This document shows positions 50,790 to 52,666 of a stretch of 63,466 nt of DNA, piece by piece; the first letter of the stretch is position 1; every line of letters begins with the position of its first letter. The stretch lies in IMG/VR virus record IMGVR_UViG_3300030060_007512, positions 1 to 63,466 of that record; one strand, given 5' to 3'. A model generated the notes under the pieces. The model did not search any database, was not told the origin of the DNA, and saw only the letters and a list, made by a program, of their open reading frames with translations. The stretch comes from a virus. A program made the translations under genes and the position numbers.

Positions 50790-51293
50790 ATGCCAGATTT
50801 CGAACAATTTAGCCCCGAATCATTCATGGCCGGACCTGAAGAATTATTTGTACCCAAGACAGCCAATAGGTTTGTTATGACAGTTGCAAACATTCCTTCG
50901 TTTCTAGTTAAAAAAGTAACTAGACCTGGAATAAGTTTCGGTGAGATTAAATTAGATCATATTAATACTTATAGAAAATTACAAGGTAAAGCAGATTGGC
51001 AAGATGTATCGATGACATTATACGATCCAATCATACCATCTGGTGCTACTTATGTAATAGACTGGGTAAGATTAGGATATCAATCAGCAACTGGGCTAGC
51101 TGGTTATCCATCAGAGTATAAAAAAGAAGTAACTGTAGAAGGATTAGATCCTGCAGGAAATATTTGTGAAAGATTCATATTGAAAGGTGCTTTCATATCA
51201 TCAGCTGAGTTTGGTGAATATGATTGGGCTAACGATCAACCATTAGAGATTTCAGTAACAATGAAATACGATTGGGCACTTTGGGATCTATAA
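50790..51293 (+). CDS. gp19: Tail tube protein (gp19)
   Basis: 167 residues, the size of T4 gp19 (163). Features: TANRFVMTVANIPSFLVKKV, RPGISFGEIKLDHINTYRKL, DWQDVSMTLYDPI and the closing DQPLEISVTMKYDWALW strand. It stacks as hexamers to form the inner tube. GAGGAG site, directly after the sheath gene. Confidence 0.95.
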   Translation: MPDFEQFSPESFMAGPEELFVPKTANRFVMTVANIPSFLVKKVTRPGISFGEIKLDHINTYRKLQGKADWQDVSMTLYDPIIPSGATYVIDWVRLGYQSATGLAGYPSEYKKEVTVEGLDPAGNICERFILKGAFISSAEFGEYDWANDQPLEISVTMKYDWALWDL

Positions 51294-51528: not shown

Positions 51529-51558
51529 GAAAGTCCTAGAAATCCTAGGACTTTTTTT
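51529..51558 (+). terminator. Rho-independent terminator after tail-tube unit
   Basis: AAGTCCTAG - AAATC - CTAGGACTT, a 9-bp perfect stem followed by a T-run (51552-51558). Confidence 0.93.
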
Positions 51559-51574: not shown

Positions 51575-51603
51575 TATAGAACAATATAAATAGGAGTTAT
51601 AGA

Positions 51604-52449
51604 ATGGCACAAAAGTTAACAGACGCTCAAATAAAAGCAAAAATTATTGCAAACGCTCAATCAGAAAGTAAATCAAAAAATGATAATGATTCATTATTTC
51701 CAACAGAAATAGTACCATTACCATCTAAAGGATTAGTATATCCACTTGATCATCCTTTATCTTCAGGTGAAGTAGAAATACGCTATATGACCGCTAAAGA
51801 TGAAGATATACTTACAAATCCTAACTACCTTAAACGTGGACTAGCATTAGATAAATTATATGAAGCTATTGTTGTAGGTAATGGTAAAGGTCAGCCAGTA
51901 AATATGAATGAAATGATTATGGGTGATAGAAGTGCTGTAATGTTAGCTGCAAGGCTCCTTGGTTATGGAAGTGATTACGATATTACTGTAACACATCCTG
52001 ACACTGGTAAAGAAATACCTCATACAGTAGATTTGAATATACTTAAACCTAAAGATATTGACGAGTCATTATATAAAAATTCAAGAGAATTTGAATATGA
52101 GTTGCCTGTAAGTAAAAAGGTTGTAGTATTTAAGCTACAAACAATTGTAGAGCAAAAGTCGATCGAAAAAGCTATCAGATCTCAAGAAAAAGCAGGTATT
52201 CCTTTAAGAAATCAAACAACTACATTAAAAGAATGTATTGTAAGTATTGACGGTAATGATGATCCTAAATTTATTAATAGCTTTGTAGATAACTATTTAC
52301 TTGCTAAAGATTCATTACATTTAAGGAAGTTTATGCTAGATATTAACCCTGATTTTGATTTAACAGTTGTTATTGATATTCCAACTGAAGATTTTTATCA
52401 GGAAATGGCTCTGCCAATTGACACCTCCTTTTTTTGGCCTAGGCTCTGA
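51604..52449 (+). CDS. gp26-like baseplate hub assembly / tail-assembly chaperone protein
   Basis: 281 residues. The segment VPLPSKGLVYPLDHPLSSGE, then VEIRYMTAKDEDILTNPNYL and KLYEAIV, matches the T4_baseplate family (T4 gp26). It lies between tail tube and tape measure, the place of tail-assembly chaperones in most phages. Its last codons run through a T7 tract (52429-52435) and stop at TGA 52447. A +1 shift there would continue into the next frame to give a protein of about 353 residues. TAGGAG site. Confidence 0.82.
   Translation: MAQKLTDAQIKAKIIANAQSESKSKNDNDSLFPTEIVPLPSKGLVYPLDHPLSSGEVEIRYMTAKDEDILTNPNYLKRGLALDKLYEAIVVGNGKGQPVNMNEMIMGDRSAVMLAARLLGYGSDYDITVTHPDTGKEIPHTVDLNILKPKDIDESLYKNSREFEYELPVSKKVVVFKLQTIVEQKSIEKAIRSQEKAGIPLRNQTTTLKECIVSIDGNDDPKFINSFVDNYLLAKDSLHLRKFMLDINPDFDLTVVIDIPTEDFYQEMALPIDTSFFWPRL
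52429..52435 (+). other. Candidate +1 programmed frameshift site (T7 tract)
   Basis: The codons TCC TTT TTT TGG in the gp26-like frame contain seven T. Dropping one T, by ribosomal or RNA-polymerase slippage, joins the upstream frame to an open frame with protein-like sequence and no credible start of its own. The stop of the zero frame is only 12 nt further on. Confidence 0.6.
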
Positions 52450-52666
52450 TTACAGGGCCGTTCTGCACCAAACGTTGTTTTATATACTAGACAACGGACC
52501 AGGCTTCTCGTGGTCTGAACTATATACTATGCCTATAGATCTGCGTAGATTCTATCAGAAACTCGTAGTTAAAAAAGTAAAAGAGCGAAATGAAATTATA
52601 GAAGCTCAAAATAAAAAAGTAAAATCTATTAAGGGTAACCTACCGAATATTCCACGTAAAAAGTAA
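52436..52666 (+). CDS. Frameshifted C-terminal extension of the gp26-like protein
   Basis: 76 residues entered by the +1 shift (GLGSDYRAVLHQTLFYIL...). The text SELYTMPIDLRRFYQKLVVKK and the following charged helix look like real protein. The only ATG before the shift site (52367) lies inside the upstream gene in another phase, codes an implausible hydrophobic stretch and has no SD; an inner ATG within YTMPID also lacks one. This resembles the second half of the G/GT-type chaperones. The alternative is a separate gene with a weak start. Confidence 0.6.
   Translation, partial: GLGSDYRAVLHQTLFYILDNGPGFSWSELYTMPIDLRRFYQKLVVKKVKERNEIIEAQNKKVKSIKGNLPNIPRKK

Follow-up and report, generated by a model that had tools for sequence, protein, structure and literature searches.

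A programmed +1 frameshift very likely operates in the gp26-type tail-assembly chaperone gene of the virus studied here, as judged by sequence comparison. We give a probability of about 0.88 to the full reading, in which this locus would make two chaperone proteins by a +1 slip of the ribosome. The sequence studied, called the window, comprises positions 1 to 63,466 of the record IMGVR_UViG_3300030060_007512, and the locus occupies positions 51,604-52,666 of its + strand. Comparison with relatives points to the conservation and selection of a +1-frame extension, to a rule for the slip site, to an avoidance of T before the run, to a stem downstream of it and to homology with chaperones of the -1 type. 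As far as checked, three things are new: the existence of a conserved +1 class, the rule for direction and the stem.

Results

Probable slip site and predicted products of the window locus

At its 3′ end the zero frame reads TCC TTT TTT TGG CCT AGG CTC TGA. The preliminary description of this locus had placed the stop of the gp26-like frame 12 nt after TCC TTT TTT TGG and had the +1 frame open across the junction for 76 codons, and the coordinates confirm both (Table 1), the 12 nt being counted from the second TTT codon, the coding part of the +1 frame being 52436-52663 and its stop TAA 52664-52666. A computed translation with a single +1 step gives a fusion of 353 residues, the size that had been proposed, with the predicted junction peptide ...DTSFFGLGSDYR... 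The +1 frame was also said to have no good start or ribosome binding site; indeed, only TTG start-like codons lie before or near the junction, with no Shine-Dalgarno sequence seen beside them. The motif TTTTTTTGGCCT is present in a single copy in the window, for 0.05 expected. T7 runs as such are rarer than chance over the whole window (45 seen, 82 expected). No tRNA genes were found in the window.

Table 1. Features of the chaperone locus and of its neighbours in the window.
Feature	Position	Strand	Basis or remark
Tail tube protein	50790..51293	+	tail tube family phrog_4542, E 5.5e-25
Shine-Dalgarno AGGAG of the zero-frame gene	51592..51596	+	by reading; 7 nt 5′ of ATG 51604
TAC-N, gp26-like tail-assembly chaperone, zero-frame product of 281 aa	51604..52449	+	ORF, PF12322, phrog_150, model
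Codon TCC before the run	52426..52428	+	third base not T, which removes the -1 heptamer
Slippery run TTT TTT T	52429..52435	+	P-site codon 52432-52434, A-site TGG 52435-52437
TAC-C, +1-frame extension of 76 aa (GLGSDYRAVLH...)	52436..52666	+	open frame, dN/dS, homology, helical model
Stem-loop GGCUCUG-AUUA-CAGGGCC	52442..52459	+	begins 7 nt past the P-site codon; takes in most of the zero-frame stop
Zero-frame stop TGA	52447..52449	+	ORF
Probable tape measure protein, 606 aa	52919..54739	+	position only; order as in immuto and SP-15; weak Mel-JY01 match

The zero-frame product matches PF12322 T4_baseplate (E 1.3e-7, 31.9 bits for a cut-off of 24.5) and the baseplate hub family phrog_150 (E 2.7e-11); together with the comparison of relatives, the PF12322 match bears out the gp26 relationship suggested earlier. 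The TAC-N and TAC-C domains were modelled apart. The TAC-N model (pLDDT 93.8) resembles the model of the Bacillus SP-15 baseplate hub, with a TM score of 0.85 by target length, and a fold search ranked the HK97 chaperone 2ob9 first among PDB matches at a value that is not significant (E 0.31). The TAC-C model is helical (pLDDT 88.5); its fold search gave no significant match, the Moogle tape measure chaperone being among the weak ones. Sequence searches of the PDB returned nothing useful.

The placement had been likened to that of lambda G/GT, and this likeness stands: the tail tube gene on the 5′ side is identified by phrog_4542, and the probable tape measure gene on the 3′ side is assigned by its position and by the annotation of Flavobacterium phage immuto and SP-15, in which the order tail tube, chaperone, tape measure is also found and the tape measure genes are annotated. 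The 606-aa gene of the window has a weak match to a gene of Microcystis phage Mel-JY01. Between the tail tube and chaperone genes, a terminator-like inverted repeat with a T run is seen at 51529-51558, and SP-15 has an annotated terminator at the equivalent position.

Conservation of the +1 arrangement

We count 134 distinct loci with the +1 arrangement, to which many metagenomes and several isolate genomes contributed, the isolates including immuto, Mel-JY01, SP-15 and Streptococcus phage GXN1; the loci are related, and these counts do not represent independent events. Comparison with relatives, which had been proposed as a check, thus finds the two-frame overlap again in other genomes. In nearly all loci of a first set the +1 frame runs on for 57 to 106 codons beyond the stop of the zero frame; the -1 frame is mostly shut within 14 codons. 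In a second set the arrangement was present in 85 of 88 loci, and one of the three exceptions (L318) has the same site with a shorter +1 frame. Selection on the +1 frame, another check suggested at the outset, is purifying: dN/dS of the extension has a median of 0.20, and none of the 49 usable pairs reaches 0.5.

The records of the four isolate phages consulted annotate no fused product, so that the C domain of their chaperone is overlooked or entered as a hypothetical gene of its own. The arrangement is also seen, with TTT TTT TGG CCT, in the assembly of a bacterial chromosome, candidate division WOR-3 (CP070664.1), where it may belong to a provirus, a phage contig or an injection system. Four related contigs (L038, L043, L045 and L049) have one in-frame TGA at the same place of the gp26-like gene, suggesting that TGA is read there as Trp.

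Rule for the slip site

To count among the 134, a locus needed an open +1 frame plus a YTT-then-Y site near the stop, so that the following rule is partly built into the set; the pattern was failed only by L318 and L344 of the second set and by the detached forms described below, and very few loci were left out because of the site alone. TTT fills the P site in 123 loci and CTT in 11, with T or C as the next base in every case. TTC never occupies the P site, for 28.7 cases expected from its usage elsewhere in the genes (a pooled expectation). The A-site codons are TGG (113), CCC (7), TAC (6), TTC (3), TAT (2), CAC, CGT and CCA (1 each). The rule also holds in 39/39 representatives taken one per cluster at <60% identity, and CTT TGG sites arise in several branches of the tree. 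A distant jumbo phage outside the 134 (LR756508.1) has TTT CTA with a +1 extension, that is, UUU_C.

All P-site variants fit a forward re-pairing, from CUU to UUU, UUU to UUU or UUU to UUC, as far as can be read from the codons; in the TTT CCC subgroup, the slip could take place on CCC instead of TTT. The slippery T7 run emphasized in the preliminary description is present, but T7 itself is not the signal, since TTT CTT TGG and the TTT C.. variants are equivalent. The same variants argue against a -2 slip on the run, which would reach the identical frame with one extra residue. The T7 run permits such a slip, and -2 frameshifting has been reported for phage Mu; however, TTT CTT TGG, TTC TTT CCC and TTC TTT CGT re-pair poorly two bases back, keep the architecture and all fit +1. 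We consider a -2 slip improbable.

The +1 direction that had been proposed is corroborated by the open +1 frame, the closed -1 frame and the missing heptamer in the window, and by the site rule in the 134 loci.

Relatives that shift in the opposite direction

Cyanophage-type and other classic T4-like relatives have NNT TTT TTC, and nearly all of them carry 55-66 further codons in the -1 frame. Profile comparison indicates that the +1 and -1 extensions are homologous (hhalign 91.2, E 1e-6; at most 1.1 in reversed and shuffled controls). T4 gp51 is matched at its C-terminus by the -1 extension (59.6, E 9e-5); a direct profile match between the +1 extension and gp51 failed (probability 0.2), and the gp51 link of the +1 extension runs via the -1 group. 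By homology, there are good grounds to place the window locus among the T4-like gp26/gp51 chaperones, while the -1 direction that defines them appears, from the reading frames, to be replaced by +1.

In the -1 group, a T-ending codon precedes the run in 68/68 loci; T was used there in locating the site, and one of 69 loci had no such site. In the +1 group, by contrast, the preceding codon ends in T in only 5 of the 104 loci having a T-ending synonym, for 56.6 expected from pooled codon usage, and in 2/39 clusters at 60% clustering. Thus GAC precedes the run 13 times and GAT never, AAC 19 times and AAT once, GAT and AAT being predominant elsewhere in the genes. CAG is likewise found 20 times and CAA never, though CAA predominates elsewhere; an A before the run is also avoided in some lineages, for a reason that is unexplained. 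The 595-kb uncultured phage LR756511.1 has GGT TTT TTC in a related gene, and its extension lies in the -1 frame, as expected under the direction rule. These comparisons suggest that a single U may set the direction of the shift.

One account, to which we give an even chance of being right, is that homologous T4-related chaperones switched shift direction, that the third base before UUUUUU decides it and that one subclade gained a stem as a stimulator. In this account, U makes the -1 heptamer and no U leaves forward slippage in the P site.

Downstream stem-loop

In the subclade of the window, a stem of 7 bp with a 4-nt loop begins 7 nt after the P-site codon. All 7/7 pairs are possible at this offset in 17 of the 134 loci and in none at any other offset tried. 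In a covariation analysis of 18 sequences, 97.6% of the cells are paired and the stem contains 17 double changes, compared with 4.7 in shuffles (0/500 shuffles as high); the rows had been picked for the stem, except L008 and L329, which inflates the pairing percentage and not the double changes. The covariation score is 0.507, versus at most 0.117 for slid versions of the stem. These alignments were built from sequences other than those of the isolate phages. The fold of the window region has a z of -3.05.

We sought a stem common to all +1 relatives and found that one subclade only has it. The stem is not essential to the +1 class, because most +1 relatives lack it at that geometry. A stem-loop stimulator on the 3′ side is rare for bacterial +1 sites.

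Transcriptional slippage, in which RNA polymerase would gain or lose a U at the T7 run and the fusion would then arise by ordinary translation, is very improbable. Most members have the T7 run, but the arrangement persists where no more than three T stand in a row (TTTCTTTGG, TTCTTTC), in line with the CTT and TTT-C variants, and the covarying stem together with the avoidance of T before the run fits ribosomal slippage better.

Initiation in the extension and detached forms

In 15 loci a +1-frame stop lies only 20 nt 5′ of the zero-frame stop, so the frame change must fall at the T run. In two loci (L035 and L298) the +1 frame lacks ATG, GTG and TTG over its whole length, and 66/134 loci have no start codon before codon 15 of the extension, with the consequence that the conserved FFGL..Y block cannot be made by initiation.

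In the tree, the +1 loci fall together with their detached relatives into a single group (support 100/99), separate from the -1 relatives. Rhizobium phage LG08, which shifts -1, adjoins this group on a long branch and its position is unsure, long branches limiting the deep branching order. Detached forms lie inside the +1 group at two places: L180, L182 and L203 have an in-frame TAG and then an ATG, and in L185 and L187 an insert after the zero-frame stop parts the two halves of the chaperone. By eye, this insert has a GIY-YIG/zinc-finger look and resembles a remnant of a homing endonuclease. From their place in the tree, the detached forms look derived.

These forms bear on the view that the extension is expressed as a gene in its own right, from a start codon of its own or by translational coupling. 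Their detached C domain has an ATG, and T4 has separate genes 26 and 51; yet the detached forms nest within the frameshifting clade, and a separate gene leaves the loci without a start codon unexplained, which makes this view very unlikely. Separate-gene relatives, named earlier as a finding that would speak against frameshifting, were found in these five loci, which, as stated, nest in the clade and look derived. Sequencing error or a decayed gene has a negligible probability: homopolymer runs are error-prone, but the two-frame arrangement is seen again in the 134 distinct loci, in metagenomes and isolates alike and under purifying selection, and is not due to chance or error.

Discussion

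We infer from these comparisons the slippage in vivo, its efficiency, the role of the stem and the chaperone function, and we propose the following course of events. Most ribosomes would halt at 52447 and release TAC-N. In a fraction of them, peptidyl-tRNA(Phe) on UUU 52432-52434 would, while the A site (UGG) is still empty, move one base forward and re-pair with UUU 52433-52435; these ribosomes would continue with GGC CUA... and make TAC-NC, of 353 aa. The missing U before the run would take away the -1 heptamer and, in the subclade of the window, the stem-loop 7 nt downstream probably slows the ribosome. By analogy with lambda gpG and gpGT, both forms may coat the tape measure protein and recruit the tail tube protein.

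In 2022, Vladimirov, Gautam and Davidson (Virology 566:9) reportedly described tail-assembly chaperones made by frameshifting in T4-like phages. With these chaperones the window locus shares the PF12322 N domain, a homologous C extension, two products per locus (predicted for the window) and an FF motif at the junction. It differs from them in direction, as cyanophage-type relatives shift -1 and T4 has two genes, whereas the window has a closed -1 frame, no heptamer and an apparent +1 shift. One source dates the identification of T4-like phage chaperones to 2022 and notes that in some of these phages a separate long gene is found instead (PMC10885494); in a 2025 paper, the T4-like sites are given as -1 (PMC12846349). 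The preliminary description considered a +1 event in a T4-like gp26 homologue unusual and knew of no account of it; we found no description of a +1 class in the gp26-type family in the literature searched, which misses most subscription papers, while frameshifted T4-like chaperones as such are already published.

Frameshifted tail chaperones are a known class (PMC5009743). In lambda, G/GT lies between the tail tube and tape measure genes and a shift near the 3′ end gives a short and a long form (PMC5009743). On comparative evidence, the shift in the window likewise lies near the 3′ end and would fuse a C domain, but lambda shifts -1 and no sequence similarity is shown. A +1 shift has been proposed for the chaperone of the myovirus HSTV-2 (PMC5009743, PMC8211752), which is an archaeal virus.

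The +1 site of Escherichia coli prfB works by P-site re-pairing on CUU_U or UUU_U (PMC10885494). The window and most relatives have UUU_U or CUU_U and the remaining relatives UUU_C; prfB differs by a stop codon in the A site and a Shine-Dalgarno sequence 3 nt before, neither of which is found in the +1 relatives (sense A-site codons; no conserved Shine-Dalgarno sequence by eye). Influenza PA-X, at UCC_UUU_CGU, offers a UUU_C slip in the P site without a stop, and TTC TTT CGT of GXN1 is nearly identical to it, although PA-X involves a eukaryotic ribosome and an unrelated gene. Listeria phage PSA also has +1 shifts in phage structural genes, but at CCC proline codons of its capsid and tail shaft genes.

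With the loci described here, a textbook -1 system, whose best-known members slip backward, would gain a +1 class that is large and conserved. Since matched homologous sites appear to shift in opposite ways at nearly the same sequence, nature offers in them a test of how the direction of ribosomal slippage is set, and its cause can be addressed directly by single-base changes.
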